A stretch of DNA of 62,169 bases, taken from the IMG/VR virus record IMGVR_UViG_3300011116_000128, positions 1 to 62,169 of that record. One strand, written 5' to 3'. This stretch comes from a virus. The notes beneath the pieces are model-generated. The model made no database searches, was not told where the DNA came from, and saw nothing but the letters and a program-made list of their open reading frames with translations. The position numbers and the translations under genes are program-made. This document shows positions 1 through 62,169 of the stretch, piece after piece (position 1 is the stretch's first letter; each line of letters begins with the position of its first letter).

Positions 1-127
1 AAGGGTTAGCCCAGGGCCGTGCTGCATTTGTGCGCAATTTGGTTCAAGATGCCTACGGCACTTTCTTCTCATCGGCTACTTACGCAAAGCGGCCGGATGT
101 GATGGATCTGTACTCCAGCACAGACAT
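1..127. repeat. Terminal overlap, left copy
   Basis: These 127 bases are identical to 62043-62169, so the sequence closes into a circle of 62,042 bp. The length 127 equals a common maximum assembler k-mer, so this is most simply the overlap a de Bruijn assembler leaves on a circular path, not necessarily a biological terminal repeat. The overlap lies inside the giant polyvalent gene and keeps its reading frame. Confidence 0.95.
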
Positions 128-3100
128 GAAGTTTGCTGTTGAGAAGCTGGCTGATCTGGCTGATGCCATTAAGAATGGTGGCATCCCCATGCAGCAGACC
201 GTGGCAACCATGCTGTCTAAGGCTGGTCAATACATCCGCCGTGAGCGGACTTTTGCTGGCGTGTCTTATGACACCAAAGAAACCAAGGTCGACAAAGACA
301 CCGCTGAGAACATGGCCTCGTCCATGCGCCAGATCCTTGCGTTCTCCCGCGCCAAGGAAGAGGTTGTCAAAGGCATTCAAAAAGAGTTAGACCGCCAAGG
401 CGCTAAAGTCGGTGGAGAAGGCGAGAAGACGCAAGTCCAGTCTGCCAACTTTGGCTCAATCATGCACAACTTGATTGACCAGATGTTGCTATCGCTCAAA
501 GCGCAAGATTCTGTGCAACACGCTATTGATCGCTTAAAGGCCGGTGAAAAAGTAGTGATGACGGTCTCCAATACGATGGGTTCATTCCTGCAAAACTATG
601 CAGATGAAATGGGTCTTGTCACTGGTGATGCAGTGGATCTGTCTTTTGCTGATCTGTACCAGCGTTACCTTGAAAAGCAACGCATCATCAAAATTAAAAA
701 ACCGCGTGGCGCATCTGAAGAGTACCGGTTGACCGATCAAGATCTTGGCCCAGCTCTAACTGCTAGGTTCAATGAAATCAGGGACTTCATTGAAAGTTCC
801 GGCTTTGGCTCAGCCCCAATTTCCCCTATTGACTACTTGCACAGTGAGCTGAATAAAGCCGGGTACAAGACCGAGGAAATTACCGGACGCACTATCACGT
901 TGAATTACTCAAGTGGCAAGCCGCTGCTGACTTCACGTTCTGCCAACATCAAGCAGCGCGTGACTGCTGTTAAGAACTTTAACAATGGTAAAGCTGATGT
1001 CATCATCTTGAACCAAGCTGGATCTACAGGTCTGTCGCTTCATGCGTCCGAAAAGGTTGATGACAAGCGCAAGCGCCACATGATCATTGTTCAGCCAGAG
1101 AAGAACATTGATACGCATATGCAGATGCTTGGCCGCGTTCACCGCACGGGTCAGGTGGTAACTCCAGCCTACTCACAGATGATGGCTGATATCCCGGCCG
1201 AAATGCGCCCTGCTGCAGTCCTGCTGAAGAAGATGGCATCGCTCAATGCGAACACCACCGGCTCCCGTAAATCGGCTGTAGCTGCTGAAGGCGCGGTTGA
1301 TTTTATGAACGACTACGGCGGTCAAGTCGCCCAGGAATACTTGCGGGATAACCCTGATGTCTACGAAGACATTGGAGGCAAGCGGATTGTTGAGCTGGTG
1401 GATAACCCCACCGAAGCTACTGAAAACGACATTCGCCGCCTGACAGGTTACATTCCTATCCTGCCTATCAAGCAGCAGGAAGAGGTCTACAAAGACCTGA
1501 TTGAGCGTTACACCGATTTGGTTGCCCGCGAAGAAAGCATGGGCACAAACAAGCTGGAATCCAAGGCCAAGGACTTGGACGCCAAAACCATATCGTCTGT
1601 GCCCATCACCGAAGACAAGAACGTGCAGTCGGACTTTGGTAAGCCAGCCTTCATGGAACAAGTCGATGTCAAGCGCACAGTCAAGCCGTTCTCTAAGGAT
1701 GAGGTCAAAGAGCAGATCGAGGAAAACCTGGGTGGCAAAACTTCTAGCGAGTTTAGCAAGGATCTGCTGAAGGATCTGAACGACCGCGTCCGCACATACG
1801 TTGATGAGCGCGTCCAAGACGTCATTGAAGAAGATAATGTCAAGGCTGACACCATCAATAGTCAAGTCAGCGGGCAAGCTAGTCATGTTCGGTCTGTGAT
1901 TGAATCCTTCCCTATTGGCTCTCAAGTATCCATCAAGAATACCAATGGCGTGTTTGTGTATGGCGTGATCACCAACATCACAAACAGCAAAAAGACCAAA
2001 AACCCTGTTGCTGGCTCTGATTGGAAGATGCAAATTGCTCTAGCCAATGGGGATTCAAAAACCACTTCGTTGTCTTTTTCTCAGGTCGGAAGTTCCTACA
2101 CACTCAAGCGTGAGCAGGAAATCAACTGGCTTAACCCTGATACCTTGAAGGGTGAGTACATCCCGCTGATGGACTTGTTTGATAAGGGCGCTATTGCACG
2201 CCGGGAAAAACGTTGGATGGTGACCGGGAACATCCTGGCTGGGTATGCCGCCGTCAACAACATGGGGCAGATCATGTCCTATACAAAGGACGATGGTACT
2301 ACCGGCCAGGGCGTATTGATGCCCCGCACGTTTGACTTTGAGAAAGCCCAGAAAGAAGCCCCCGTCAAGCTCAAGAGCGCCAACAATGTGATGCAGTTCT
2401 TTGATGCGTTTGACAATGGAACTGTCAAAACAGAAGACGGCAACTTGCGCATTGTTAAGCGCAACAACACGTTTGTGTTTGCGGCTGAGCCATCCAAAAA
2501 ACTGGGTGGTACTTACTTCCTTGACCGCGGTCTCACCGACATTACCGGTGACTTCTACAAGCGCGGTGCTTTCATGGATGCTCGGTACATCAATGAAGAT
2601 ACCGCCATTAAAGCCATCCAATACCTATTGGCTACCAAGGGCGTGTCGCTAGAAGCAGCCAACAACAAAGAAGAAGCCCGCAAGCTGTTTGCGCCTAAAC
2701 CGTTTAAGCCTGGGTTAGCAAACGTGTCTTACAACAATGCCTATCACAGTGGCGATTTGGGATATGGGAAAGATACCGTTCTTGGAAGAATGTCAGGCAG
2801 AAGCACTGGGCATTTTGGTACAGGCGTTTATTTTGTTGGCAATCCACAGAAACTAAAAACTGTAATTAGGGATGAACGTCCAACTGAAAAAGTAAGCTTT
2901 GACGGATTTAATCTTGCGACTCCTAGAAACAATGATAACGCTCAGCGTTTACATGATGGTTTACGGCAAGTTAATCAGTTAGTTACTGCTGATTTGCAAA
3001 CCAAAGAAGCAGATGAAAAAATTAAACGTGCTGCATCTGACATTTGGTTTGCCGTTGGCGCTGGTAAATTTAGTGAAGAACAAATTCAACAAGCCATACG

Positions 3101-6100
3101 CAAAGCTTTAGCGGAAGCTGCTCCGCTGTATGAAGAGGTGTCTTATACATCAAAGTACGTTGAATCTGCGTCTACCCGTGTGATGAAAAAGCTGGGGTTT
3201 GATGGCATTGATGTTCGTGGCTTGAGCGAATTTGACAACACCACATATGGTTCAGTCATTTACCAAAAGCAATTCACTCCACGAGATAGCATTAACAGCT
3301 TGCAAAACCAAGGGCCTATTGGTCAACGTCTAAACCTGGACGAGAACCGGTTCATGGACCGGGCTGATTTGATCCGCCAGTATCAAAGCTTGCGTCAGAA
3401 GCGTGCCGGTGTCCTTGCTAAGTTTGCCAAAGGTGAAGCTGGCCTTAACGAACAACGAGCCATCACTGCCATCAATGAAACTGCTGGCGATTTAAGCAAT
3501 CAGATCAAGGCCAGCAAGCCAGAGCGCCGCAGCGCAAAAAACTTTTTTGCAGACGCTACTCGCGCATGGGATGCCGGTGAGATCAATGACGATGTGTACT
3601 CGGCTATCAAGACCCTGTACGAGCGCCATCCAAATGTGCTTGAAGGATTGAAATTCTCGGTCCGCATGAACCCTGAGAAAGACAGCAATGCCGCCGGGCA
3701 GTTCTTCTCACTGGCTCGGATCGTTCGTTTGTACAAAGGTACAACGGGAACTACAGATCCCGTCACCATTCGCCACGAAATTGTTCACTCGCTTGAACAG
3801 ATGATGTCTGGTGAAGCCTCGGCCGATTTGATCAATGACTGGGCCGACAAACTCGGCAAAGCCATCAAGACCAAAAAGTCCCCTGAAGCCCAGGTGTATT
3901 TCCGTGCAGTGCTGGAGTTCTTTGAAAACCCCACTGAGGATTCTTTTAAGAACGCACTGCGCCTGCTGCCAAGCTATGACTACTACCAATACCTGAACCC
4001 TTCCGAGTACTGGGCGGTCAACGCCGAGAAGCTGATGGCCCGCAAGCTTGGTTCTGGCTGGGACCGGTTTGTCTTGTCTGTCAAAGGTATGTATGAAGCC
4101 CTAAAGGACATGTTCGGGTTTGACAACCAGTACTTGATCCACAAAATCTTTGATGACGTTATGAATGGTCGTGGTGAGCGTTTCACCAAAGCCGCCCTGA
4201 ATGACTATGTTCTGCAGGAAAGCTTCGCTCTGATGAACCAGAACGTGCGCCGAAACTACAAAGGCGGACCAGCACCTCTGGCTACATGGCAAGAAGCCAA
4301 TGAGTCCAAGATAGACAACTTCATCTACAAGTGGCAAGACAAGCACGTTGACACCAAGCGTGTGGTTGAGGCCATCAAGAATGAAGTTGGCCGTATTGAG
4401 GATGCTTGGGATCCCTACCTCCAGGAAGAGCTGTTCCACGGCCGGACTGCCAAGCAGACAACGGATTTCCTCAAAGGCGAGCTGCGCCCATTCCTGGAAA
4501 AGATGGACAAGGATGGCATCAAGCTCCAAGACTTTGAAGAGTACCTCCATAACCGCCATGCTGAAGTACGCAATAATTTTATTGCAGCGCGGAACCCCGG
4601 GATGCCTGATGGCGGATCCGGTATTTACACGCAAGAAGCCCGTGACTACATGGCTGGCTTGGATCCTAAGACCAGAGCCAAGTACGAAGATCTAGCCACA
4701 ACGCTGGATAGGTTTGTCAAAGAAACCCAAGACCTTTTGGTTTCTTCCGGCCTGGAAAAGCAAGAGACTATTGATGCGTGGCGCAAGCTGCTGCCCTTCT
4801 ATGTCCCCCTGAACCGGGATGCTGACGAGCTGGATTACGTTAACCCTGTTAGCGGTATGGGCCAAGGGTTTGGCGTGCGCGGGGCCTTCTCAAAGACTGC
4901 CACCGGCTCTCTAAAAACAGTTGTAGACATTGTGGGCAACATCGCCCTGCAGCGTGAGCGTGCAATTGTGCGGGCTGAGAAGGCGCGTGTTGGCCGGGCG
5001 CTGTATGCCTTGGCTATTCAGAACCCCAACCCTAACTTCTGGATGCCCATCAACCCTGATGCCATCAAGAACAAGAAAAAACTGTATGCCGAAATGGTCA
5101 GCATGGGGATGAACCCAGCTGATGCAGACAACATTGTTCAAGAGCCACGGGTAGCCAGGATTGATCCAACTACCGGCTTGGTTCGTTACTCGGTCAATCC
5201 AGTCCTACGCAACTCACCAAACGTCTTGCCTATTCGCATTAACGGTGAAGACCGGTTTGTGTACTTTAACGCTGGCAATCCAAATGCCAAGCGCATGGTG
5301 GAGTCCTTAAAGAATCTTGATGTCCAGCAAATGGATGAGGCGCTCAGTTCTATCGCTGAAATTACGCGGTTCATTGCGGCAGCTAGTACTCAGTTCAACC
5401 CAGTGTTTGGTGCATTCAACTTTGTGCGTGACGTTCAAGGTGCTGCTATCAATCTTTCTAGCACGCCTATTGCTGATCGCAAGCTCCAGGTCATCAATGA
5501 CTCAAAGACGGCCGTCAGGGCTATCTATCGTGACCTCCGGGGCAAAGGTGCTACCACTCCAGCAATGCAGCAGTGGATTGACTTGTTTGAACAGTACCAA
5601 AAGGCTGGTGGGCAAACAGGATTCCGTGAGCAGTTCAGCAAAAGCAAAGAGAAGGCAACCATCGTCCAGCGTGAGCTGAGCCGCTTGAATCAAGGCAATC
5701 TCAAGAAAGCTACATATGCCGTTCTTGATTTGCTATCTGACTACAACGATGCAATGGAGAATGCTGTACGTTTAGCTGCATTCAAAGCTGCCCTGGATGA
5801 GGGGATTTCTGTAGACCGTGCTGCAAGCATAGCCAAGAACATCACCGTCAACTTCAACCGCAAAGGCGCAAACACTTCCAGCGCAGCCGCCCTGTATGCT
5901 TTCTTGAATGCCAGCATCCAAGGTACAGCTCGGCTCATTGGAACGCTATTTGTTAAAGACGCAAATGGCAAGATGAGCCTAAGCCCAGCCGGTAAGAAGA
6001 TTGTTGCGGGCGGTATGTTGCTTGGGGTAGCTCAGACGGCACTTTTGGCAATGGCCGGGTTTGGACCGGATGATCCTCCTGAGTGGGTTAAGTCTAAAAA

Positions 6101-6974
6101 CTTGGTTATTCCTACAGGGGATGGAAAGTACATCACTATTCCAATGCCATTGGGATTCAACGTATTCCCTAATGTTGGGCGTATTGTTTCTGAATACATG
6201 ATGGTTCAGTCCGGCGGCATGAAGGGTCGACGCGATCTTAAGAAGACCATTACCTACATTGGTTCCACAATTCTGGATGCATTCAATCCTTTGGGATCCA
6301 GCACGTTTGCTCAAACTCTGGCCCCCACTATTGTGGATCCATTCGTAGCAATTGCAGAAAACAAAGACGCATTTGGCCGTCCAATTTCCAAAGAAGACAA
6401 GGCGCTGGCCCCAACTCCTGGCTACAAACGCAGCCGCGAATCTGCTAATGGACTAAGCCAAGCATTAGCCTATGGCTTGAACTACATCACCGGAGGGGGA
6501 GATAAAGGTATTGGCTTGGTAAGCCCAACGGCTGACCAAATTAGCTATGTTGCAGGTCAATACAGTGGTGGTGTTGGAAGGCTGGGAATCCAAACGGCTG
6601 AATATGTAAAGTCAAAAGTAGTCGGAGAAGAAGTCCAGCCGTATCAAGTTCCTATCGTTGGAAAAATGTATGGGGACATCAACACCCCGGCCGCTATCTC
6701 TGGAAAGTTCTATGACAACATCACCGAAATGTCCAAACATGAGAACATCATCAAAGGCATGAAGGGCAAAGGCGTAACTGAGTACTACCAGGAAAACCCT
6801 GAAGCTAGATTGTGGCAACGGTCCAACTACGTTGAAAACCAGATTGCCCGTTTAAAGAAAGAGAAGAAGGCATTGTCTGAACGCAATGCACCCGAAGCTC
6901 AGCTTAAGCGTAAAGACGAGCAGATCAAACAGCTAATGGAATCCTTCAACAAGGAAGTCACAAAACGCCAATGA
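1..6974 (+). CDS. Giant polyvalent protein, 3' part (continues from 56963-62169)
   Basis: The frame is open from the first base, with the first full codon at 3 and the stop at 6972-6974. It is the continuation of the gene starting at 56963: 62072 and 30 are the same base and codon phase. In full-length numbering this part is about residues 1695-4017 of 4017. It opens in the second half of a strawberry-notch/DarB-like SF2 helicase; QMLGRVHRTGQ at about 2068-2078 is motif VI. An ADP-ribosyltransferase-like domain follows at about 2600-2790 (NAYHSG, GTGVYFVG, KLGFDGIDVRG). A zincin-like metallopeptidase has HEIVH at 2952-2956, with PSEYW downstream as a possible third ligand. The long C-terminal region contains a hydrophobic stretch near 3694-3716 (GGMLLGVAQTALLAMAG) and a charged, coiled-coil-like tail. 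Known polyvalent proteins are carried in virions and ejected with DNA; that role is inferred here. The GTG at 30 is internal, not the true start. Confidence 0.85.
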   Translation, partial: GLAQGRAAFVRNLVQDAYGTFFSSATYAKRPDVMDLYSSTDMKFAVEKLADLADAIKNGGIPMQQTVATMLSKAGQYIRRERTFAGVSYDTKETKVDKDTAENMASSMRQILAFSRAKEEVVKGIQKELDRQGAKVGGEGEKTQVQSANFGSIMHNLIDQMLLSLKAQDSVQHAIDRLKAGEKVVMTVSNTMGSFLQNYADEMGLVTGDAVDLSFADLYQRYLEKQRIIKIKKPRGASEEYRLTDQDLGPALTARFNEIRDFIESSGFGSAPISPIDYLHSELNKAGYKTEEITGRTITLNYSSGKPLLTSRSANIKQRVTAVKNFNNGKADVIILNQAGSTGLSLHASEKVDDKRKRHMIIVQPEKNIDTHMQMLGRVHRTGQVVTPAYSQMMADIPAEMRPAAVLLKKMASLNANTTGSRKSAVAAEGAVDFMNDYGGQVAQEYLRDNPDVYEDIGGKRIVELVDNPTEATENDIRRLTGYIPILPIKQQEEVYKDLIERYTDLVAREESMGTNKLESKAKDLDAKTISSVPITEDKNVQSDFGKPAFMEQVDVKRTVKPFSKDEVKEQIEENLGGKTSSEFSKDLLKDLNDRVRTYVDERVQDVIEEDNVKADTINSQVSGQASHVRSVIESFPIGSQVSIKNTNGVFVYGVITNITNSKKTKNPVAGSDWKMQIALANGDSKTTSLSFSQVGSSYTLKREQEINWLNPDTLKGEYIPLMDLFDKGAIARREKRWMVTGNILAGYAAVNNMGQIMSYTKDDGTTGQGVLMPRTFDFEKAQKEAPVKLKSANNVMQFFDAFDNGTVKTEDGNLRIVKRNNTFVFAAEPSKKLGGTYFLDRGLTDITGDFYKRGAFMDARYINEDTAIKAIQYLLATKGVSLEAANNKEEARKLFAPKPFKPGLANVSYNNAYHSGDLGYGKDTVLGRMSGRSTGHFGTGVYFVGNPQKLKTVIRDERPTEKVSFDGFNLATPRNNDNAQRLHDGLRQVNQLVTADLQTKEADEKIKRAASDIWFAVGAGKFSEEQIQQAIRKALAEAAPLYEEVSYTSKYVESASTRVMKKLGFDGIDVRGLSEFDNTTYGSVIYQKQFTPRDSINSLQNQGPIGQRLNLDENRFMDRADLIRQYQSLRQKRAGVLAKFAKGEAGLNEQRAITAINETAGDLSNQIKASKPERRSAKNFFADATRAWDAGEINDDVYSAIKTLYERHPNVLEGLKFSVRMNPEKDSNAAGQFFSLARIVRLYKGTTGTTDPVTIRHEIVHSLEQMMSGEASADLINDWADKLGKAIKTKKSPEAQVYFRAVLEFFENPTEDSFKNALRLLPSYDYYQYLNPSEYWAVNAEKLMARKLGSGWDRFVLSVKGMYEALKDMFGFDNQYLIHKIFDDVMNGRGERFTKAALNDYVLQESFALMNQNVRRNYKGGPAPLATWQEANESKIDNFIYKWQDKHVDTKRVVEAIKNEVGRIEDAWDPYLQEELFHGRTAKQTTDFLKGELRPFLEKMDKDGIKLQDFEEYLHNRHAEVRNNFIAARNPGMPDGGSGIYTQEARDYMAGLDPKTRAKYEDLATTLDRFVKETQDLLVSSGLEKQETIDAWRKLLPFYVPLNRDADELDYVNPVSGMGQGFGVRGAFSKTATGSLKTVVDIVGNIALQRERAIVRAEKARVGRALYALAIQNPNPNFWMPINPDAIKNKKKLYAEMVSMGMNPADADNIVQEPRVARIDPTTGLVRYSVNPVLRNSPNVLPIRINGEDRFVYFNAGNPNAKRMVESLKNLDVQQMDEALSSIAEITRFIAAASTQFNPVFGAFNFVRDVQGAAINLSSTPIADRKLQVINDSKTAVRAIYRDLRGKGATTPAMQQWIDLFEQYQKAGGQTGFREQFSKSKEKATIVQRELSRLNQGNLKKATYAVLDLLSDYNDAMENAVRLAAFKAALDEGISVDRAASIAKNITVNFNRKGANTSSAAALYAFLNASIQGTARLIGTLFVKDANGKMSLSPAGKKIVAGGMLLGVAQTALLAMAGFGPDDPPEWVKSKNLVIPTGDGKYITIPMPLGFNVFPNVGRIVSEYMMVQSGGMKGRRDLKKTITYIGSTILDAFNPLGSSTFAQTLAPTIVDPFVAIAENKDAFGRPISKEDKALAPTPGYKRSRESANGLSQALAYGLNYITGGGDKGIGLVSPTADQISYVAGQYSGGVGRLGIQTAEYVKSKVVGEEVQPYQVPIVGKMYGDINTPAAISGKFYDNITEMSKHENIIKGMKGKGVTEYYQENPEARLWQRSNYVENQIARLKKEKKALSERNAPEAQLKRKDEQIKQLMESFNKEVTKRQ

Positions 6975-15314: not shown

Positions 15315-15504
15315 AACATACGAAGCAATCATTGACTACGCAAAACCCTGCATGGATGCCGAGAAGGCATTGAAAGATGCTCACAACGCGGTTCTAGAGC
15401 AAAACCTGGATTTGGCTATGATCAGGACGATGGACGCCGTCATTTCGGCACGGCTCATGTACGGGTCATTGCGCGACATGAAGGAGAGGCAAGGTGGAAG
15501 ATAG
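15307..15504 (+). CDS. Helical small protein, 65 aa
   Basis: Shares MDKTYEAII and its ribosome-binding region with the gene at 14189, then diverges into a helical protein (CMDAEKALKDAHNAVLEQ, MDAVISARLMYGS). No family recognised. Confidence 0.55.
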   Translation: MDKTYEAIIDYAKPCMDAEKALKDAHNAVLEQNLDLAMIRTMDAVISARLMYGSLRDMKERQGGR

Positions 15505-15871: not shown

Positions 15872-16039
15872 ATGGACATACCAAACTTTGCAGCATGGTC
15901 CAACGAAAACTTGGCGAAGTTCGCAGCCGAATCTTACATACGAATGAAAGAACAACAGGATGCCCTCATGCTCATGCAGCGTGGCATCAAGGATGCGATA
16001 GAGAACCTCAACAAAGCACTAAAGGAAAACAATGACTGA
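15872..16039 (+). CDS. Helical small protein, 55 aa
   Basis: Starts MDIPNFAAWSNENLAKFAAE, then helix throughout. The AAGGAG before the ATG is strong and the stop overlaps the ParB-like start. Not recognised. Confidence 0.55.
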   Translation: MDIPNFAAWSNENLAKFAAESYIRMKEQQDALMLMQRGIKDAIENLNKALKENND

Positions 16040-50861: not shown

Positions 50862-53800
50862 ATGTTGCCGCAACAAGGAATTATGTCGCTTGCCAATTAT
50901 GGCCCCCAGGCAGATCGGGCGGTTGATCAAGTCCTGAGCAGCACAACCCAAATGCTGGGTAAGTTGGACAATAAAACCCTTGGCTTGTTGCTCCAGCTCA
51001 CGCAATACCTGAAGGACCATAAATCCAAATACAAGGAATTGATTGGCAAACTGGAGAAAAAGGGTTCACTTCCACCTGGGGTTTTCCCTGATCACTACGA
51101 TCCCAAGTTCCTTTCGGTGTTTGCCCTGAGCGTTTCCAAAGCTCAAAAGGGCGGCATGGCAGAAGGTGGTATTGCCACCATCGCCCAGACCCTGAAAAAC
51201 CAAGGGCGCGGCAAAGACACTATGTTGGCTCACATTAGCCCTAGTGAAGCCAGGCTGCTGGAAAAACGCGGCGGCGTTGGGACAATTAACCCAGCCACTG
51301 GCCTGCCTGAGTACGGCCTGTTTGAGGACATTGGCAATGCGCTGTCTGGCGTAGGTAACGCCGTTGGCAACATCCTAAAGCCGGTTGGTGACTTGATTGG
51401 TAACGTTGTCAGCAGCCCCCTTGGATTGGCCGCCACCGCCGCTGCAGCCTATTACTTCATGGGGCCAAGCGCAGGAGCTGTGGTTCCTAGTGTGGCTGGA
51501 GCAACCCTGCCAGGAGAGGCAGCAGCTATTGGTACGGCGGCGCACTTAACTCCGGCCGCAATTGAGTCTGGGATAGGCTCTGCTGGCTATGGAACCAGTG
51601 CAGCCGCTGCTGAGTCTGGCCTATTCAATCCAGAGACGATTGGGTCCGGCGCTGCAATAGGCGCACCCTCTACAACAGACAAGCTTCTTTCAGCCAATTT
51701 ACTTAAAAACGTAAAGCTTTCATCGGGCGAGGAAGAGCCTGCATCAGATCCAAACGCTCTCATCAAGCTTCTGATGATGTTTGAGATGATGAACAGCAAA
51801 CAAAACCAACCAGTAAGTCAGGTGCTTCCTGCGTTGACAGAAAATACATCAAGCTTGCCTTATGACAAACCCAAAAAAGACCTGTCATCGTTTATTCCTT
51901 CCCAAACCACACATGCAGCAGGAGGTGGTCTTATGACTAAACATCTTGGAATCGGTGGCCTGAGCGCCAAACGGTCGCAGACAGACTACGCCAAAAACTA
52001 TTTGCCCGGCAGCGGCTACCGTCCAGGCCAAGGTGGAATTACGTACTTCACCCCTGTTGAGTACATTGGCGATGGAACAACTGCGCCCACAGATACAACT
52101 GGCACCTCCCCTTCAACCGCAACCGATGAGCTGTTAAGGCAAACGCTGGGCCGGACCGGCGGAGGTGGCGGGATGGATTCTGAAAGCCGTGCTGCCATGT
52201 TGGCTGAAACAGCGGCAAGGATGGATGCATGGGAAAAAGCTGATCCTGAAGGGTACAAGCACCGTAATGATTGGATAAAAAACTTATTCAATGGATCAAT
52301 GCTTGTCCAACTTGCTAAGCTGGCGTCACAAGGCATTGACACCGTTAAGCAGACATGGGCCAATGAAAGGTTAAAAGCTTTAGGCATTGATCCCAAGATT
52401 GTTTTGGCAAACCAAAATGCTATTGCTGGAACATCTATGCAGCAAGCCCTTAATTCATTAGGGCAGGCCAGCGCGGCCGCAGGTAACTATGCTGAAGTTG
52501 GTGGGTATGAGCCTGGGTCTGAAGAGGCTAAGGCTGCTGCATCTGGAACGGTTGGCGGTTATGGCCCAGGTACACCTGGATTTAATGCAATGCCTGATAC
52601 TAGCAACCCAGCAAGTGTAGGTATGGTAGGACTCCCACCAAGTAACTATACCCCTACTGCATACACCTTTCAACCCAATGCTGTAAACAATTTGTTAAGT
52701 AATTTGGGTTTACCTGAAAGCAATGAAACAGTAGAAAGGTATTTAGCGGAGAACAAAGATATTGCCTTAGCCAAAACAACTGATGATGTACTTAAGCAGC
52801 TAATTGCAGATTCAAATTTGGCCGCTAGCGCGTCTTCTGCAGCTGATATTCCTACCACTATTCGGGAAGCAACTACCCCTGAAGCGCAAGCCAACAAAAT
52901 TGCTGAGCTAACAAACATTGCTAAAACAAATGAAGCAAACGCCGATGAACGCGCTGAATATGAAAAACGTGCTCAAATGTTGGCAGATCAAACAAACGAA
53001 GAGTCACTTGCATCGGCTTTGGGGAGTGATTACACACCAAGAGGAGAAGAGGGGCAAGCTGCTGTTGCCAAATTAGCACAAAGAATTGAGGATCAAGAAA
53101 AAGCACGACTTGATAGATTAGCAGCTAGCATTGCAGCTGACCCAGTGCGCGCAGCTCGAGAAGCCCGGTTAAAGATGCTTTTGGGCCAGACTAATGAAGA
53201 GTCCATCAAATCTTTTTTGGGTGATGATTACACTCCAAAAGAAATTGCACCAGTTGAATCTGAAAGTGATCGTTTGGACCAATTAATCCAGTCTTTTCTT
53301 GACACTACACCTGGAGATGTTTTTGGCCCAGCAGTACAACTTGCTGCCGCCGATGGGTTTAACCTTGGTGAACCTTCCGGCAACACCATTGGGAACTACA
53401 GCATGTTTGTTCCGCAAGAAGCCGCCGATACTTCTGGCGTGTTGAGCGCAAATGCAATTCAGCAAGCATACCCTGGCGCTTTCGATCAATCGCCATTGGC
53501 TTCCTTGGCTCCAACGTCTTACTCGTACTTGGGTGGTCAAGGTAACAACTCTATCCTTGGTGGGTATGGTGGTCTTGGAAGTGCTTGGCAAGGCGTTGTT
53601 GATTCCAGCGGAAACCCTGTATTGACTAGCCAGGGCGCTGCTGAGCGGGCGTTCCTAAATTCGCCTGAAGGCATTGCGCTTGGTAATGAGCGGGCATTGC
53701 AAGGCTACATCTCTCCTCTATCGGATCCGGCGCAAAGGCAGGGGCAAGGAAGTGAAACTCAAGGCAATGACGGCAATGACGGCAATGACGGCGGAGCAGA

Positions 53801-54260
53801 TTCCGGCGGCTACGCGGCTTCTGCACAAAACGCTGGCACTGCTCGCGGAGATAGCGATGGTGGCGGCGGATACTCAAACGCGAATGCTGGAAACTATGGC
53901 TGGGCACGTTCTGGCGGGGGTGAGGGGGGCGGTTGGGCCGCAGGAGGAACGACACACGGCGGCATAGCCAACCTGCACCAATACAACCTCGGTTCCTACT
54001 CCGATGGCGGGCGCTTGCTCAAGGGGCCAGGAGATGGCGTTTCCGACTCTATCCCCGCTACAATTGGACAAGGTCAACCAGCCCGCCTAGCAGACGGCGA
54101 GTTTGTTATACCGGCAAGGATTGTTTCTGAGCTAGGAAACGGTTCTACAGATGCGGGCGCTAAGCGTTTGTATGAAATGATGGACCGCATTCAAAGAGTC
54201 CGCCGAAAAACCAAAAATGTTGCAGCGAACACAAAAGCCGCAAAATACTTGCCAGCATAA
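50862..54260 (+). CDS. Large internal/ejection-type virion protein, 1132 aa
   Basis: A low-hydrophobicity, Ala/Gly/Ser-rich protein with a possible membrane-active segment near residues 185-215 (PLGLAATAAAAYYFMGPSAG). GGMAEGGIATIAQTLKNQGR and ILPATGLP-like stretches match the internal proteins of related podophages. A duplicated unit, (M)L(A/G)QTNEES(L/I)xSxLGxDYTP, occurs twice in the C-terminal half. A nine-base tandem repeat (GGCAATGAC three times, near 53764) encodes GNDGNDGND. By position it would be released into the host envelope before the giant protein. Confidence 0.6.
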   Translation: MLPQQGIMSLANYGPQADRAVDQVLSSTTQMLGKLDNKTLGLLLQLTQYLKDHKSKYKELIGKLEKKGSLPPGVFPDHYDPKFLSVFALSVSKAQKGGMAEGGIATIAQTLKNQGRGKDTMLAHISPSEARLLEKRGGVGTINPATGLPEYGLFEDIGNALSGVGNAVGNILKPVGDLIGNVVSSPLGLAATAAAAYYFMGPSAGAVVPSVAGATLPGEAAAIGTAAHLTPAAIESGIGSAGYGTSAAAAESGLFNPETIGSGAAIGAPSTTDKLLSANLLKNVKLSSGEEEPASDPNALIKLLMMFEMMNSKQNQPVSQVLPALTENTSSLPYDKPKKDLSSFIPSQTTHAAGGGLMTKHLGIGGLSAKRSQTDYAKNYLPGSGYRPGQGGITYFTPVEYIGDGTTAPTDTTGTSPSTATDELLRQTLGRTGGGGGMDSESRAAMLAETAARMDAWEKADPEGYKHRNDWIKNLFNGSMLVQLAKLASQGIDTVKQTWANERLKALGIDPKIVLANQNAIAGTSMQQALNSLGQASAAAGNYAEVGGYEPGSEEAKAAASGTVGGYGPGTPGFNAMPDTSNPASVGMVGLPPSNYTPTAYTFQPNAVNNLLSNLGLPESNETVERYLAENKDIALAKTTDDVLKQLIADSNLAASASSAADIPTTIREATTPEAQANKIAELTNIAKTNEANADERAEYEKRAQMLADQTNEESLASALGSDYTPRGEEGQAAVAKLAQRIEDQEKARLDRLAASIAADPVRAAREARLKMLLGQTNEESIKSFLGDDYTPKEIAPVESESDRLDQLIQSFLDTTPGDVFGPAVQLAAADGFNLGEPSGNTIGNYSMFVPQEAADTSGVLSANAIQQAYPGAFDQSPLASLAPTSYSYLGGQGNNSILGGYGGLGSAWQGVVDSSGNPVLTSQGAAERAFLNSPEGIALGNERALQGYISPLSDPAQRQGQGSETQGNDGNDGNDGGADSGGYAASAQNAGTARGDSDGGGGYSNANAGNYGWARSGGGEGGGWAAGGTTHGGIANLHQYNLGSYSDGGRLLKGPGDGVSDSIPATIGQGQPARLADGEFVIPARIVSELGNGSTDAGAKRLYEMMDRIQRVRRKTKNVAANTKAAKYLPA

Positions 54261-54269
54261 GGAACGATC

Positions 54270-55265
54270 ATGGTCGCAATAACTTCAGCATCGACGCTTG
54301 ACAACAACCTCACAGCGGGTGGGACTAACTCTCAGGGGTTGGCCGAATGGGCGTCTCCTTATGTCACAAACTATCTAAGTCAAGCTCAAGCTCTAGGTAA
54401 AACGCCATATCAAACTTACGCCGGTCCTCTTACGGCTGGTGCGTCCAATCTTCAAAAACAAGCATTTCAAGGGATTGGAAGCTTGACTGTTCCTGGCGCT
54501 ATTGGTGACGCAACTTCAACTGCTGGTAATGTTGCTAAAACCGTTGGTGGGATGACGTATACCCCAACCACAACCGATTTCAACGCTACGCAAGCGCAGC
54601 AGTACATGAACCCGTACTTGCAGATGTCGCTTAACCCTCAGCTGGAAGAGGCGCGTCGACAATCACAGATTACCCAAATGGGTAATAGCGCAAAAATGGC
54701 TCAAGCTGGCGCATTTGGCGGTAGCCGTCAAGCCATCATGGACGCTGAGACCCAACGCAACCTAGGAACAAACTTGGCCAACATTACTGGCGCAGGCTAC
54801 AACACGGCCTACACAAATGCCATGCAGCAATTTAATGCTGATCAAGCGCGCAAAGCTCAAGAGGCGCAGTTTGGCGCTAACTTTGGGCTGGGCACACAAG
54901 CCGCGGCTCTCAATGCGGCCAACATCCAAGGCCAGTTAGGGCTGACTCAGAACCAAGCCAACCTTGCCAATCTTAACGCCCAACTAGGTGCTGGTGCGAC
55001 AGAGCGTGGAATTACGGCCGAAGGCATTGCGGCGGATCAAGCTGAGTTTGAAAAGCAACGCCAGTTCCCCTACCAACAGGTGCAGTTCCAGCGCGACATG
55101 ATCTCTGGAATGCCAATATCATCTCTATCAAACACGCCCGGATCTTTGACCGGCATTGGTTCTTTACTAAGCTCATTGGGTGGCGCTACCAGCGTAGCTT
55201 CCGCTCTTGGCTACAAAGACGTTGGCTCTTTATTGAAGAAAATAGGGCTTGACTTAGGACCATAA
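54270..55265 (+). CDS. Internal/ejection-type virion protein, 331 aa
   Basis: A helical, Ala/Gln-rich protein (QANLANLNAQLGAGATERG, IAADQAEFEKQRQFPYQQVQ) with LAEWASPYVTNYLSQAQALG near the start, a recurring pattern in internal proteins next to giant polyvalent genes. It has no enzymatic motif. Amphipathic helices that assemble a trans-envelope conduit are a reasonable guess. Confidence 0.55.
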   Translation: MVAITSASTLDNNLTAGGTNSQGLAEWASPYVTNYLSQAQALGKTPYQTYAGPLTAGASNLQKQAFQGIGSLTVPGAIGDATSTAGNVAKTVGGMTYTPTTTDFNATQAQQYMNPYLQMSLNPQLEEARRQSQITQMGNSAKMAQAGAFGGSRQAIMDAETQRNLGTNLANITGAGYNTAYTNAMQQFNADQARKAQEAQFGANFGLGTQAAALNAANIQGQLGLTQNQANLANLNAQLGAGATERGITAEGIAADQAEFEKQRQFPYQQVQFQRDMISGMPISSLSNTPGSLTGIGSLLSSLGGATSVASALGYKDVGSLLKKIGLDLGP

Positions 55266-55276
55266 GGGTATGAAAA

Positions 55277-56959
55277 ATGAACCTCGTTAAAATTCAGGAT
55301 GATCTGAAACTGGCCCCAGTCCAGGCGATCATGGCCTATGCAAACGGGAGTAATCCCGAAGTGCCTCCTTATATGGCTCTTGCTGAGCTAAGCCGACGCA
55401 AGACAATGGAGCAGCGTCGAGCAGAGCCTCCAACGCAGTCTGTCAAAGAAAAACTTGAATCAGAGGTCACAAACCCTCAAGGCATTGCGCAGCTACCGCA
55501 AGCCATGCCGCAGCCAGGAATGTTGCCTCAAGGCGCTCCCCAGCAAATGCCACAACAGATGCCTCAACGCCCGCCAGGAATGGCTGCTGGTGGAATTGCC
55601 CGTATCCCCACGCGCAGTGACATGTTCCATTACGCTCCCGGCGGTATTGTTGCTTTTGCTGAAGGTGGTGAACTAACTCCCGAAGATTTTGGAGCTATTA
55701 GAGGGCCTATGGGGGACATTAATTTGCGCCAGAGTAGCCCAACAGCACTGAACCCATTTCCAGGTGTAAATTTTGCAGCTAGAAATTTTGAAGATAAAAC
55801 TGTTGATGTTGGCGCTCACAACCCAAAACTAGACCTTCCTGGCGCGCTTACATCCCAAAACAAAGGCGCGCAACCTAGCGGGATTGCTGCGTTGCCAGAA
55901 ACAGCGCAACTGCAAGACCTTGTACCAAATGCAGCAAGCCAATTACGCAAGGCATTGCTTGGAGATGTCACCCTGCCTGAAGTGCAGAGCAAAGAAGACA
56001 TTCGCAAAGCAATGATTGCTGATGCCTTGGCTGATGGAAATGTTGAAAAAGCCAAAATGCTTTCTCAAATTCCGGGTGAAGCGCTTATTCCGCTTGTCAA
56101 AAAACTCAATGAACAAAATGAAGAGCAACGGGCGGGTTTTAGAGAAGGCCAAGGCCGGATGGGTTTAGCAGCTCTATCTAATGCGTTGATTGCGGCCGGT
56201 GAAGCTACACGCGGCCAAAAGGGCGCAGGCATAGGTGAGGCATTTGGAGGGTTTGGTAAATCCTACAATGCATTTACGGCTGAAGACGTTAAGCGCCTTG
56301 AAGCCCAGAAAGCAATTGAACGGGCGCAGAATATTGAAGTTGCCACCCTTCAGAGCAAGATTGATGACTTGCGCGCAGCACATGCAAACGGCACGATTCA
56401 AGACCAGCAGGAAGCTCAAAAAGCAGTTCAAGAGCAAGCTAAAAGAATGCAAGACTTGAAGATGGGCGCTGCTGACAAAATCCTTGCGCAAGCACTTGCA
56501 CAGTCTCAAGCTCAAACTACAAAAGAGCATTACAAAGCTATTGAAAAACAAGCTGCCGATCAACTTGAAGCAACAAAAGCACACTATGCTGATCAGGCCC
56601 GCAAGTCTGCTGCGGCACTGCAAGTGCAAAAAGACCTGCGTCAAGATGCTATTGAAGCAAGAGCGCGGGCTAAACTTGACGATGCAATGAGAGGCGACCC
56701 CCGTATTGCTATGCTTTCCAGGCGGCTTAATGACCCCGTTAACCCTATTGAAATTGGAAGCGAAAATTACGATAAGATTATGGATGAGGTGGAGCGTATT
56801 CGGCGTGAAATTATGGCGGAGCATCCTGAATTTGAAGTCCCATCAACAAGAAGAGGAGCGCCCCAATATGCTAAAGATGCCAAAGGCAATGTGATTGTTT
56901 CATATGACAATTGGGCCACACATCAACCTTTTAAGCGTACTATTACTGGCGGGAGATAA
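55277..56959 (+). CDS. Internal/ejection-type virion protein, 560 aa
   Basis: Contains a Pro/Gln/Met-rich stretch (QAMPQPGMLPQGAPQQMPQQ), GGIARIPTRSDMFHYAPGGI, VAFAEGGELTPEDF and a long helical C-terminal half (AQKAVQEQAKRMQDLKMGAA). The GGI-x-x-F-A-E-G-G motif is shared with the 1132-residue protein and relatives. The gene ends two bases before the giant gene's leader, so the two are probably coupled. Confidence 0.55.
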   Translation: MNLVKIQDDLKLAPVQAIMAYANGSNPEVPPYMALAELSRRKTMEQRRAEPPTQSVKEKLESEVTNPQGIAQLPQAMPQPGMLPQGAPQQMPQQMPQRPPGMAAGGIARIPTRSDMFHYAPGGIVAFAEGGELTPEDFGAIRGPMGDINLRQSSPTALNPFPGVNFAARNFEDKTVDVGAHNPKLDLPGALTSQNKGAQPSGIAALPETAQLQDLVPNAASQLRKALLGDVTLPEVQSKEDIRKAMIADALADGNVEKAKMLSQIPGEALIPLVKKLNEQNEEQRAGFREGQGRMGLAALSNALIAAGEATRGQKGAGIGEAFGGFGKSYNAFTAEDVKRLEAQKAIERAQNIEVATLQSKIDDLRAAHANGTIQDQQEAQKAVQEQAKRMQDLKMGAADKILAQALAQSQAQTTKEHYKAIEKQAADQLEATKAHYADQARKSAAALQVQKDLRQDAIEARARAKLDDAMRGDPRIAMLSRRLNDPVNPIEIGSENYDKIMDEVERIRREIMAEHPEFEVPSTRRGAPQYAKDAKGNVIVSYDNWATHQPFKRTITGGR

Positions 56960-56962
56960 ATA

Positions 56963-59900
56963 ATGCCATTGCCACCTGGGTTTGAGGTTATTGAATCACC
57001 AATTGCCAAACAAGAAAAGGCAAAAAACTTACCCGAAGGCTTTGAGCTAATAGAGAACCCGTTCAAGCTGCCTGAGCGCCCGCCTGCGCCAGAGCCATAT
57101 AGCGTTGGGTCAGGCATCCTTGACCTCCTGAAGCAGACTGTCTCTCCTGCTGTAGCTGCACCTTTTCAAATCCCACGCGGAGCTGAGCTTGCGGTCAAAG
57201 GCGCTGCACGCAAGGCTATGGAAGGTGAGCCAGAGGCGGTCATGCCGTCATCTGTGTATTCCCCTGGCCTGGATACAGAAGAAACAATTTTTGGCCCTGA
57301 AACAGAGGCGCAAAAAGCACGCCGTAAGCTTGGTGCGCAACGAGCTGTTGCGTCTATGCCATCCATCCCTTATGCAAAGGACTTGGCAAAGATTGGAGAC
57401 AAGGTCCAAAAGGACATCTATGAAAGCTTGTCTCCTCAAGGTAAGCAAGCTCTAAAAGATACAGAGATAACAGGCAATCTCTTTAAGGGTGAAGTGGACT
57501 TTGGAACTAACCCTAACGCAATGGGGTACGCCTTACAAGTAGCAAACGTATTTGGCTCATTGGCCCCAGTTCTTATAACGGCTGGGATAACCAAAAGTCC
57601 TGGCGCGGCCGGGGCCGTTGGTGGGGGCATGGCTGCTGATGAGGCAGGCCAAAACGCTGCTCAAGAAATAAACAAGTTGTCTGACGCTCAACTGCGCGAA
57701 CAAAGCCCGTTTTACGCACAGATGATTGCTGGTGGAGCCTCCCCTAAAGAAGCCCGTCAATTGACGATTAGCAAAGCAGCTGAGTCCGGCGCTATTTTGC
57801 AAGGGCTAGTGGCTACGTTTGGTGACAGGTTTACTGGTCAATTGGTGACAGGTGCTTTTGACAACGTCTTAAAGAAGATGGCAGGCACAACACTGGGACG
57901 CAGAGCCGCTGGTCTTGGCATTGGAATGGGCGAAGAAGGTCTGCAAGAAACTGCAGAAGGCGTTGCGTCTAACATTGGTATTCAGGGTGTTCTGCCAAAG
58001 ACAGAGCTTGGCGAAGGATCTGCGGCCAACTTTATCCTTGGCGCGCTAGGTGGCGCAGGCCCAGGCGCTATCAGTGGCATACATATCAATGAGACCCCTG
58101 AAGAACAACGTGCCCGCGTCTTGTCTACTCTGTTGAATGAATCAGTAAAAGGCAAAACTGCTGACCAGCGAGCCATTGACCAGCAAGCAATTAATGCTAT
58201 GCGGCCTGACCGCGGATTCCAGGCTGGGACCAACATTCAAATTGACCCTCAAACAGGTCAGCCGGTTCTTTACAGAGAGCCACCGGCCCCAACAGAGCCA
58301 ACCGGTATAGCCGCGCTTACACCAGCAGCCCCAGCAGAAGGCATTGCTGGCATTCAACCGCCTGTTGTTCAACCAACACCTGTAGTCCAAGAAGATCAAG
58401 AGGCACAAGACAAGAAGGCGATGATGGATGAGGTGATGGCCGCGTTAGGCCAGCCTGTTACATCAACTTCAACTCCAGTTAAAGTTGAAGAGCCAAACAT
58501 TGTTAATGCATATGACATGGGTAATAACATGGAATACCGTGTTATCAAAACCCAAAATGGCTACACAGCCAATATGTATGACAAGGATTCAGGCCAATAT
58601 GTTTCTGGTTCTGCCCGCATTTTTAGGACAGATAAATTTGGGGATGAGGCTTTAACCAAAGCCAACGAATTTGCGCAATCTGAACAAGCTAAAACTGTTC
58701 AGCCTCAAGGAGTTTCAAGTGGCACTGAAGTTTCTCAAATTCAACAAACAAAACCACAAGAACAACAAGCGCCAGTAGGTCAGGAGCAAAGTTCTAAAGA
58801 AGAAATGCTTCAGCGGCTAAAAACCTCGGCTCCAGAAACGGCTGAAACAATTGCATTGCGTCCACGGGTTAACACAGTAATTCAACAGCTTAAAGATGCT
58901 GGGCTGGATAATTTCGCAAACATCGTAGAAGGCGATGCAGTTAAAAACAAATTTGATGAGAAAAAAGTCAAGCACTGGGAGGAGTGGGCTGCCAGGATGA
59001 TTGCTCAGCAAAATTTGATTAAAGGCGCAGAGAAAGGCATCAATAAACCTGTTGAGCCACGCAATCGCACTTTGGCTGACTTGTATGAAAGCAAATACGA
59101 AAACCAATCCGGCCTGTACATCCCCAAAGAAATTACCGACTTGGTTTTGAATAAAGCTAATGAATACATCAAGCAAGCGGCAGATTTAGGGGTTAATTTA
59201 GAGGACATTGATAGTCGTTTTCCTCAATCCATAGTTGCCATAAAAGATAATGAATCAAGATTGCGTGGGCAATTTTTGCGTTACGCCAACCAACGCAAAA
59301 TGGTTGAACGTGACTACAAAAAAGCCAACTTGGATGGTTTTTTAAAAGCCGAAAAAGAACTTGGTGACATGTTGGGCGTAGACCTTGCGCCTTTGCGCGG
59401 GCCATTCGAAAGCGAGACTACCACTGTTACGCCAACTACCCCGGCAGGCGTTACTCCAACGACGGCCCCTGTTACTCCCACAGTTTCGCCAACCGACATT
59501 ACCCCGGCCATTACTCCTCAAACGGCTGAAGAGACTGTAAAGATTAATAAGGCCAAAGATGATTTGACAGATGCGCTAGGTGACTTAGCAGAACTGCTGA
59601 CCAAAAACACGCGCATGAACATCGTGCCGGAGGACGAGCAGAAGCTGATGCCAATCCTTTCTCGGCTGATGGATGCCGCCTTCCGCATGGGCTACTACAA
59701 GTTCAAGCAGGCCGCTCGGTTCATTATGAAGACCATCCGAGAGAAGCTTGGCAAAAACGTGGCAGACCAGATTACGCTGGACCATTTGCAGGGTTCTTAC
59801 ATCAGTATGGCTGGCAAGTACCAAGAGCAAGGTGCAAGCTCCAAGAAGGAAGTTGTTTCTGTTGAAAGCCTGCAAGAGCTTGAAGAAGAAGCCGCTGCTG

Positions 59901-62169
59901 ATCTGTCTACCCCTGATGGTAAGTTTGCTGTTGCCCAAAAGATAGCTGACCTATTCAACGGCGGAGCGGCTTTTGCCAATATCGTTGAGGCACGCAAAGC
60001 CATTGAAGAAATGACCGGCCAAAAGATTGAAGCCGGGACAGAGTCTGCAAAGCAGGCCGATGAAGCTATCGAAGTAGGCGTGGTCCTGGCATCGCGCAAT
60101 ATCGTCGAGCAAGGGCGCAAGGACGGCCTCACCAAGGAACAGATCTACGACAAGCTGGTAGACCTATATGGACGCCAGCCAAACTTGTCTGTGCGCTCTT
60201 CTACCAGCGTATCCAACCAAGCCTATTCAACGCCCAATGCCTTGGCTTTCCTGGCCTCTGAGCGGGCTGGCATCAACAACAAGACCACTGTCTATGAACC
60301 AACGGCTGGTAACGGGATGCTGCTCATTGGAGCCAACCCTAACAATGTTAATGCTAACGAGTTGAATGCAGACCGTTACGAAATGTTGCAGCGCATCATG
60401 GATGGAGCAACCGTTACGCAAGGTAACGCACTTGATTCCCAGATTGAAAACAACACATTTGACGTTGTCATTGAGAACCCTCCTTTTGGCAAAGCTGGTG
60501 AGATCAGCAACATCGACCACAACATTGCTCTGGCATCACTGCAGACCCTGAAAGAAGACGGCCGTGCTGTCTTGATTTTGGGCGGAGTCCAGGCCAATAC
60601 CGAAGAAGGACGGCGCGAGGGATACCGCGGTTCTGCAAAGCGCAATTTCTATTTTGAGCTGTACAACTTGTACAACGTGGTTGACCACTTTACGGTGGGC
60701 GGGAACCTGTACGCAAAACAAGGCACGACCTACCCTGTTGATGTCATCGTAATTGATGGCTGGGGCAAATCCAAGCGTGACCTACCGGCCGCTGACTTGC
60801 CTCAAGTCTTTACCTCTTACGAACAATTGAAGGAGAAACTAAATGATCGCGTGGTATCCACAGGAAATGTCAGCCCCGCCGGAACTAACGTCGGTGTCAG
60901 TACCGAAGGGGGAGTTAAGCCAAGCACAGTGGGTGAACGCACTGAGCGACAGGGTAATGAACCTGGCACTGAAGGAAGAAAACCCGCTGGAGTCGGCGAA
61001 CGCGGCGTGTCAGAGGCTGGAACTACCGGAGGTGCAGAACGCAAACCAAGTGGGGAACGCACTGGTGAAGGACAACCTAAACCTGCTGACGTATCTGAAC
61101 GTGGCGCAAATAAAGGATCAGTTTCCGGCGAAGGTGAGCGAGGAAAGCCCACTAGCGAAGGAGGCACTGAAAGAGGTGGACCTGGAAAGCTGGGTAGAGT
61201 TAGCGTTGTCGCAGGTGAACGAGTCGAATCTGGATTAAAGCAGCGGGCTGGTCAAGAGCAAGAAACCGCTTCTCAAGTCACCTACACGCCAAAGTCTAGC
61301 GCTATCGCCGTAGGAACGCTTGCGCCCAAAGCTATGGCGCAGTCTATTCAAGACTCTATTGACCGCATTGAATCCCAAGTGGGTAATGTGGATGAATTTG
61401 TGGCTGAGTCCTTGGAAATGGATCCAGATACCCTGCGCGAGAAGTTTTCTGCTGAACAGATCGACGCCCTGGTCCTGGCTATCCGCAATGCTCAAGAAGG
61501 CAAGGGCTTCATCATTGGCGACCAGACAGGTGTCGGCAAAGGCCGTGTTGTTGCAGCCATGATTAAGTACGCCATGATTAACGGCAAGATACCTATCTTC
61601 GTTACCGAGAAGCCCAATTTGTATTCGGACATGATCCGGGACTTGGACGATATTGGCATGACTGACGAGCTTGGACTTGATACAGCCAAGACCAACATCT
61701 TCATTACCAATGGTGGTGAATCCATTCCTTACACCTTGTTGCGTAAGGTGAATGGGGAAATAACTGAGAACAACCTAATTCTTAAAGCTCCTAAGTCTGG
61801 CGCTGCGCTTGATGGGATGATGAAAGAAATGCAGGAGAAGGAAGACCTTGGGAACTTCAAGGTCATCTTTACTACCTACAGCCAGCTGCAAACCGTCAAA
61901 GGCAAACCTACTGAGCGCCAACGCTTCATCAAGACATTTGGTGCTGGCAATTACATGATTTTTGATGAGAGCCATAACGCTGGTGGAGCTGGCGAAACCC
62001 AGGCTCGTACAAAAGAACAACGAGATCAACAGAAAGAAGGCAAAGGGTTAGCCCAGGGCCGTGCTGCATTTGTGCGCAATTTGGTTCAAGATGCCTACGG
62101 CACTTTCTTCTCATCGGCTACTTACGCAAAGCGGCCGGATGTGATGGATCTGTACTCCAGCACAGACAT
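56963..62169 (+). CDS. Giant polyvalent protein, 5' part: MTase-like and helicase domains (continues at 1-6974)
   Basis: ATG 56963 has GGGAG eight bases upstream. The frame is open to the right end and, through the 127-base overlap, continues to 6974, giving 4,017 residues in all. Residues 1-35 contain a twice-repeated LPxGFExIE motif often seen in ejected proteins. Residues about 40-1000 lack recognised domains and include Pro/Thr-rich linkers. An adenine-methyltransferase-like domain has EPTAGNGML at 1112 (motif I) and NPPF at 1172-1175 (motif IV). Residues 1294-1425 are a low-complexity Gly/Glu/Arg/Thr linker that overlaps the 60843 frame. The SF2 helicase starts with GDQTGVGKGR at 1519-1528 (Walker A) and has DESH at 1668-1671. 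This MTase-helicase order is that of P1 DarB, an antirestriction protein injected with the DNA. Defence evasion is therefore the best guess for this half. Confidence 0.85.
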   Translation, partial: MPLPPGFEVIESPIAKQEKAKNLPEGFELIENPFKLPERPPAPEPYSVGSGILDLLKQTVSPAVAAPFQIPRGAELAVKGAARKAMEGEPEAVMPSSVYSPGLDTEETIFGPETEAQKARRKLGAQRAVASMPSIPYAKDLAKIGDKVQKDIYESLSPQGKQALKDTEITGNLFKGEVDFGTNPNAMGYALQVANVFGSLAPVLITAGITKSPGAAGAVGGGMAADEAGQNAAQEINKLSDAQLREQSPFYAQMIAGGASPKEARQLTISKAAESGAILQGLVATFGDRFTGQLVTGAFDNVLKKMAGTTLGRRAAGLGIGMGEEGLQETAEGVASNIGIQGVLPKTELGEGSAANFILGALGGAGPGAISGIHINETPEEQRARVLSTLLNESVKGKTADQRAIDQQAINAMRPDRGFQAGTNIQIDPQTGQPVLYREPPAPTEPTGIAALTPAAPAEGIAGIQPPVVQPTPVVQEDQEAQDKKAMMDEVMAALGQPVTSTSTPVKVEEPNIVNAYDMGNNMEYRVIKTQNGYTANMYDKDSGQYVSGSARIFRTDKFGDEALTKANEFAQSEQAKTVQPQGVSSGTEVSQIQQTKPQEQQAPVGQEQSSKEEMLQRLKTSAPETAETIALRPRVNTVIQQLKDAGLDNFANIVEGDAVKNKFDEKKVKHWEEWAARMIAQQNLIKGAEKGINKPVEPRNRTLADLYESKYENQSGLYIPKEITDLVLNKANEYIKQAADLGVNLEDIDSRFPQSIVAIKDNESRLRGQFLRYANQRKMVERDYKKANLDGFLKAEKELGDMLGVDLAPLRGPFESETTTVTPTTPAGVTPTTAPVTPTVSPTDITPAITPQTAEETVKINKAKDDLTDALGDLAELLTKNTRMNIVPEDEQKLMPILSRLMDAAFRMGYYKFKQAARFIMKTIREKLGKNVADQITLDHLQGSYISMAGKYQEQGASSKKEVVSVESLQELEEEAAADLSTPDGKFAVAQKIADLFNGGAAFANIVEARKAIEEMTGQKIEAGTESAKQADEAIEVGVVLASRNIVEQGRKDGLTKEQIYDKLVDLYGRQPNLSVRSSTSVSNQAYSTPNALAFLASERAGINNKTTVYEPTAGNGMLLIGANPNNVNANELNADRYEMLQRIMDGATVTQGNALDSQIENNTFDVVIENPPFGKAGEISNIDHNIALASLQTLKEDGRAVLILGGVQANTEEGRREGYRGSAKRNFYFELYNLYNVVDHFTVGGNLYAKQGTTYPVDVIVIDGWGKSKRDLPAADLPQVFTSYEQLKEKLNDRVVSTGNVSPAGTNVGVSTEGGVKPSTVGERTERQGNEPGTEGRKPAGVGERGVSEAGTTGGAERKPSGERTGEGQPKPADVSERGANKGSVSGEGERGKPTSEGGTERGGPGKLGRVSVVAGERVESGLKQRAGQEQETASQVTYTPKSSAIAVGTLAPKAMAQSIQDSIDRIESQVGNVDEFVAESLEMDPDTLREKFSAEQIDALVLAIRNAQEGKGFIIGDQTGVGKGRVVAAMIKYAMINGKIPIFVTEKPNLYSDMIRDLDDIGMTDELGLDTAKTNIFITNGGESIPYTLLRKVNGEITENNLILKAPKSGAALDGMMKEMQEKEDLGNFKVIFTTYSQLQTVKGKPTERQRFIKTFGAGNYMIFDESHNAGGAGETQARTKEQRDQQKEGKGLAQGRAAFVRNLVQDAYGTFFSSATYAKRPDVMDLYSSTD
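60843..61238 (+). CDS. Candidate overprinted gene inside the giant gene, 131 aa
   Basis: A complete ATG-TAA frame, one base ahead of the giant gene's frame, starts seven bases after AAGGAG. The protein (MIAWYPQEMSAPPELTSVSV to LALSQVNESNLD) is compositionally normal, rich in Leu, Asn, Glu and Ala, with predicted helices. Over the same bases the giant frame encodes only a low-complexity Gly/Glu/Arg/Thr linker. T occurs at only about 7 of 131 third positions; each of these is the first base of the overlapping giant-frame codon, where a T would risk a stop. These are signs of two constrained frames. The product is unrecognised. It may be an early or late small protein made from an internal site, or a remnant of a gene captured when the domains fused. 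Confidence 0.6.
   Translation: MIAWYPQEMSAPPELTSVSVPKGELSQAQWVNALSDRVMNLALKEENPLESANAACQRLELPEVQNANQVGNALVKDNLNLLTYLNVAQIKDQFPAKVSEESPLAKEALKEVDLESWVELALSQVNESNLD
62043..62169. repeat. Terminal overlap, right copy
   Basis: Exact copy of 1-127. Removing one copy gives a 62,042-bp circular map without disturbing any reading frame. Confidence 0.95.

Follow-up and report, generated by a model that had tools for sequence, protein, structure and literature searches.

One giant phage polyvalent protein gene is split across the ends of a viral contig

At the right end of the stretch of viral DNA analysed here (the window, an IMG/VR record of 62,169 bases), a reading frame opens with an ATG at position 56963, 7 bases 3' of a GGGAG at 56951-56955, and runs off the contig at 62169. 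The right copy of a terminal overlap (62043..62169) is identical to the left copy (1..127), and this identity of exactly 127 bases is the longest end-to-end match in the record. The overlap preserves codon phase, with position 62072 equal to position 30 (62072-62042=30), and when 56963-62042 is joined to 1-6974 the result is 12,054 bases holding 4,017 codons and a single stop, the terminal codon 4018. The 5' part of this giant gene (56963..62169) encodes residues 1-1735, the first 1,693 of which are unique to the right end, and the 3' part (1..6974) encodes residues 1694-4017 plus the stop. All features of the giant gene and of its two upstream neighbours described below are on the + strand. 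A sequence-only reading had already reported the end identity, the matching phase and the stop-free joined frame, and each of these was borne out. It had also put the gene at nearly a fifth of the genome, which is correct because 12,054 of 62,042 unique bases is 19.4%.

Several regions can be recognized along the joined protein. An N-terminal segment (residues 151-538; 57413..58576) matches the N-terminal part of PHROG 2206, "virion RNA polymerase" (E 1.3e-11). Such a match was found in 15 of the 30 N-termini that we scanned, including that of the window's protein. It lies in a weakly conserved region of the giant protein and is confined to the N-terminal part of the PHROG, at about positions 175-626 of 3406. 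A search of the giant protein for an N4-like RNA polymerase core found no polymerase domain. An adenine-type DNA methyltransferase follows (residues 1046-1224; 60098..60634), with EPTAGNG as motif I and a catalytic NPPF at residue 1172 that is kept in relatives. It matches PHROG 3820, DNA methyltransferase, at E 4.8e-12 and Pfam MTS at E 7.5e-5, just under the Pfam cut-off. Next comes a Strawberry-notch-type SF2 helicase, whose N-lobe is divided by the contig ends. Its first part lies at 61436..62017 (AAA_34 model positions 33-195, E 5.7e-16), with GDQTGVGKGR at residue 1519 and DESH at residue 1668. The left copy of the overlap falls inside the same lobe, and the second part, which contains SSATYAKR, lies at 69..305 (model positions 220-301). 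The C-lobe, with QMLGRVHRTGQ, lies at 873..1352 (Helicase_C_4, E 4.1e-25). The methylase and helicase motifs are intact.

Downstream of the helicase is an insert of about 187 residues (2605-2791; 2733..3293), followed by a zincin-like metallopeptidase domain (3318..4235) with HEIVH at residues 2952-2956 and a downstream NPSExWAVNAE. The H, E and H of this motif and the downstream PSE glutamate, a candidate third zinc ligand, are invariant in 27 aligned sequences. Pfam gave no peptidase match for the domain, and a fairly confident structural model of this part (pLDDT mostly 70-90) had no PDB match. The putative zincin assignment rests on the HExxH and the conserved downstream glutamate. A region of about 900 residues completes the protein (4263..6971) and is homologous to the giant proteins of MetMV, JC1 (gp69) and BS-TP4, with profile matches at E 1.9e-206 for MetMV and 1.6e-116 for JC1 gp69. 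It includes LPD38, large polyvalent protein associated domain 38 (6072..6659; Pfam PF18857, E 1.3e-38), a domain that among polyvalent proteins is found in phages only (PMC5512222).

Comparison of the C-terminal model with the PDB by Foldseek gave no match at E<=0.001. A single lead towards ejection, the alignment of the model (20-355) to 8vb2_A from the phage PhiM1 ejectosome, is within the noise for models of this kind (Z 6.5, rmsd 5.0, 205 aligned); helical matches to the final 97 residues make up most of the VIA-align rows, and the C-terminal profile found coiled-coil artefacts alone among PDB sequences. The C-terminal region also occurs in many bacterial genome contigs, for example L154-L158 and L193 (Zoogloea, Nitrosovibrio, Cupriavidus and Citrobacter were among the genera), where it probably marks prophages, and it is carried by Verrucomicrobia MAGs. 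Separately, the final 582 residues of the giant protein have a 99% identical counterpart on a 12.8-kb contig (L078), and therefore a near-identical phage is present in another record.

We estimated dN/dS against the nearest relative (L005/L092, 3,916 aa) at about 0.06 for the helicase, 0.10 for the methylase, 0.07 for the zincin and 0.08 for the C-terminus. These values are rough because dS is high, and they indicate strong purifying selection on all four regions, with no change at the junction. Between methylase and helicase lies a low-complexity linker rich in Gly, Glu and Thr (residues 1301-1440; 60863-61282), where dN/dS against the same relative is near 1 and synonymous divergence is unusually low (0.21 vs 1-2.6 elsewhere). 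In two other relatives, L041 and L028, the helicase alignment is interrupted by short insertions of roughly 70-110 residues, which could be inteins or loops.

Upstream of the giant gene, in the same orientation, are genes for terminase, portal, capsid, tail and ejection proteins. The upstream neighbours include a gene of the DNA ejection protein family (54270..55265; PHROG 4287, E 9.9e-9) and, directly upstream, a 560-aa gene (55277..56959) that ends 3 bases before the giant gene and has no significant PHROG match. The virion block also holds a gene of 1,132 residues (50862-54260) that matches nothing in PHROG at a threshold as loose as E 1. The terminase (roughly 48-59%) and portal (40-46%) are closest to those of Pelagibacter phages HTVC027P/HTVC023P, phage 023Pt_psg01, DSL-LC04 and the MinM2/Pag-Yong1 group. 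These phages gave no match to the C-terminal region among the best 60 of the 146 matching records, an absence that is not firm because those 60 are all that cover it.

If the two contig ends encode one protein, relatives should carry a single frame across the equivalent of the break. We collected 70 related viral loci by an IMG/VR scan with the region left of the break, and 67 of them have one uninterrupted frame over the residue equivalent to 1694, at 35-74% identity; in the remaining three the frame runs off the end of the stretch around or before that residue. Most of the crossing frames (52/67) are complete within the fetched stretch and encode 2,907-5,632 residues, with a median of 3,978. 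In 24 related records searched in six frames, no match contained a stop. Because the AAA_34 model is cut by the contig ends into collinear pieces, 67 of 70 frames cross the break and all 24 matches are free of stops, chance is excluded, and on this sequence evidence the join is genuine and the gene is one intact gene. Searches with the parts themselves were less informative: the right end had no known-phage match at the DNA level, a direct search of PDB sequences matched neither half, and NCBIfam returned nothing relevant for either.

The sequence-only reading had further held that any linear annotation would give two unrelated partial genes and miss the fusion. Two partial genes do result, but a shared match to one helicase model would keep them from appearing entirely unrelated. 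Nor is the fusion missed in general, since 52 related IMG/VR contigs carry complete frames and both BS-TP4 gp3 (5,391 aa) and gp69 of Burkholderia phage JC1 (4,515 aa; PMC9144972) were deposited intact. The presence of a methylase, a helicase and an HExxH protease signature in one chain was upheld, by profiles and conserved motifs.

We also asked how the 127-bp repeat arose. When both ends were compared in 20 related records of 59-68 kb, the end repeats measured 127 bases in four records, 99 in one, 118 in one and 22-23 in two, and 12 records had none. The helicase is found at anywhere from 0.07 to 0.89 of the length of the relatives' contigs, that is, the break points are scattered. The k values usually used by assemblers include 99 and 127. 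Because relatives show overlaps of k-mer size and varying break points, the repeat is best explained as the k-mer overlap that an assembler leaves on opening a circular graph path at an arbitrary point. An exact repeat at both ends is also what a true physical direct terminal repeat would look like, in which case the genome would be linear with its ends inside the gene, and the gene would be whole only once the genome had circularised in the cell. We regard this as very unlikely: the repeat is as long as a commonly used assembler k, overlaps of exactly 127 bases (four relatives) or 99 (one) occur at different places in the genome, and JC1, which is related through the giant protein, is reported to be circularly permuted with probable headful packaging (PMC9144972). 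A physical terminal repeat was rejected on the k-sized overlaps at varied sites in relatives. The repeat could instead be shared by two genomes or loci whose unrelated halves were joined by spurious circularisation, as can happen in short-read metagenome assembly, and the 4,017-residue protein would then be chimeric. However, the nearest relative is collinear over the join with 89% identity over 151 codons spanning the junction, a value equal to that of the whole helicase and no worse than that of the flanks; one helicase model covers both halves in order; and a 30-mer of the repeat occurs in the window at the two ends and nowhere else. A chimera is thus extremely improbable, and this candidate was rejected on the collinear alignment and the missing third copy. 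The finding corrects one record: its two gene fragments encode a single intact polyvalent protein, and the assembly of the phage is circular and complete.

The insert between helicase and zincin had been read as an "ART" (ADP-ribosyltransferase) domain. ARTs of polyvalent proteins use H, Y and D (PMC5512222), and H2608, Y2636 and D2761 of the insert resemble this pattern, within YHSG, FGTGVYF (GTGVY2636F) and GFDGI (GFD2761GI). Pfam gave the insert no match at E<=1, ART-PolyVal included, and neither tblastn in phages nor a pattern scan of IMG/VR gave support for an ART. The insert scored 0.4 against a home-made profile built from the relatives' ART-PolyVal domains, aligned to ART by hhalign no better than shuffles when decoys and shuffles were included, and found nothing supporting an ART by phmmer against the PDB. 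AlphaFold, with no homologues of the insert to align, gave pLDDT below 50 over most of it. The insert is missing from L092, where its flanks are directly joined. The ART domain was accordingly not confirmed, and the identity of the insert as an ART is unproven, the H-Y-D motif resemblance having no profile or structure behind it.

What kind of protein is encoded by the joined gene? It is a 4,017-aa chain of unrelated enzyme domains with an LPD38, and its gene lies among virion genes. We conclude that it is a phage polyvalent protein, a further member of the class already defined by Iyer et al. 2017 (PMC5512222). It shares with that class a large multi-domain chain, the combination of methylase-helicase, zincin and phage-only LPD38, and a gene beside virion genes. 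Iyer et al. cite a prophage protein with methyltransferase, SWI2/SNF2, zincin and ART (PMC5512222); the window's member differs in using a Strawberry-notch helicase, a lineage with few instances among polyvalent proteins (PMC5512222), and in that its ART is unproven.

Among individual proteins, JC1 gp69 and Bcep22 gp75 ("DarB-like"; PMC9144972) have a methylase, a helicase and an HExxH shortly before a homologous LPD38 C-terminus. The HExxH lies 163 residues before the shared C-terminal region in our protein vs 147 in JC1 (HExxH at 3465). The 4,515-aa JC1 gp69 takes up 22.1% of a circularly permuted podovirus genome of ~61 kb (PMC9144972), and differs in that its helicase is of the P1 DarB-type SNF2 lineage, its methylase is distantly similar (E 0.005), and it has an N-terminal lytic transglycosylase-like domain and LPD3. 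Bacteroides phage BS-TP4 gp3 (PQ571277) is alike in methylase (E 1.4e-62 by profile) and Strawberry-notch helicase (2.8e-194), and shares the C-terminal region (5.1e-94) within one deposited intact gene; it has about 1,500 extra residues before the methylase, and the zincin profile finds nothing in it. P1 DarB (2,255 aa), a virion-head protein (PMC5512222), similarly fuses an adenine methylase to an SF2 helicase. Our methylase profile makes a distant match to its residues 91-247, at E 3e-6 in a one-sequence search and with a low score of 12.7, whereas the family helicase profile does not match (E 0.0093, 34 residues) and DarB has no match to the C-terminal region or the zincin profile. Pfam models agree on the difference, with Strawberry-notch here vs SNF2-rel_dom in P1, and JC1 and P1 DarB share the SNF2 helicase at E 1.5e-59. 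Because that helicase is absent from the window's family, the giant protein would resemble an injected methylase-helicase of the DarB type in architecture, and its helicase places it outside the DarB family. The virion RNA polymerase of coliphage N4 (PMC12633501), an ejected enzyme, is comparable in being one giant chain in which an N-terminal region and a C-terminal domain flank the enzyme core, and the window's N-terminal segment matches PHROG 2206. Its core, however, is an RNA polymerase, and relatedness of its C-terminus to that of our protein is unsupported.

Taken as a whole, the locus is likely to represent a circular, podovirus-like assembly of ~62,042 bp opened in its largest gene, which encodes a polyvalent protein that would be packaged and ejected and would modify incoming DNA. 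The giant protein is probably packed in the virion and injected, protecting the incoming DNA. The C-terminal LPD38 region would bring it into the head; together with the ejection protein encoded nearby, it may then leave either before the DNA or at the same time. Passage through the envelope may be helped by the N-terminal segment, which N4-type virion RNA polymerases also have, and the predicted zincin could trim or release segments of the protein. The helicase-driven methylase would then mark incoming phage DNA against host restriction, as has been proposed for P1 DarB and polyvalent proteins; because the helicase belongs to a lineage other than that of P1 DarB, this antirestriction analogy is indirect. 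A methylase and a helicase would equally suit roles inside the cell, where the protein could be a restriction-modification or replication enzyme that is expressed late and never packaged or injected. We consider this improbable, given that the gene sits in the virion block behind the ejection protein and that the C-terminus is homologous to that of JC1 gp69, which mass spectrometry found in virions with 51 unique peptides, second by score among virion proteins (PMC9144972).

We mapped nine protein regions on 64 relatives, which fall into three groups: those with the same helicase and C-terminus, those with the same helicase and a diverged C-terminus, and those with the same C-terminus and other cargo. 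Each of the 14 members of the third group that we scanned has LPD38 (in one of them next to a diverged helicase), as do 5 of the 11 scanned members of the second. Cargo in the relatives includes ART-PolyVal, GNAT, GHKL ATPase, C5-methylase, ddrB-ParB, SLT transglycosylase, RadC, FtsK gamma and zeta-toxin-like domains. In the slot that separates helicase from zincin, L040 has ART-PolyVal (E 9.6e-28), L013 has a YkuD L,D-transpeptidase-type domain (14834-16696, E 1.5e-7), L017 and L021 weakly match L5 gp82, and L092 has nothing. Two SF2 lineages of methylase-helicase cargo, that of the window's protein and that of JC1, are found on the same C-terminus. As a side observation, one phage-type giant protein in the relatives' alignment has a RadC-like JAB domain; the 2017 survey found RadC confined to polyvalent proteins of conjugative elements.

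It may be, at about even chances, that the zincin-LPD38 C-terminus and a variable ejection-type N-terminus form a general phage protein-injection chassis that swaps enzyme cargo at fixed slots. If so, the 900 C-terminal residues would act as a packaging signal that can be transferred, with a range extending from phages of Burkholderia and Bacteroides to a virus of Methanosarcina. More broadly, the ~50 complete giant genes compared keep much the same C-terminal module and differ in their enzymes, which makes it testable in a cultured phage such as JC1 what packages and ejects such proteins.
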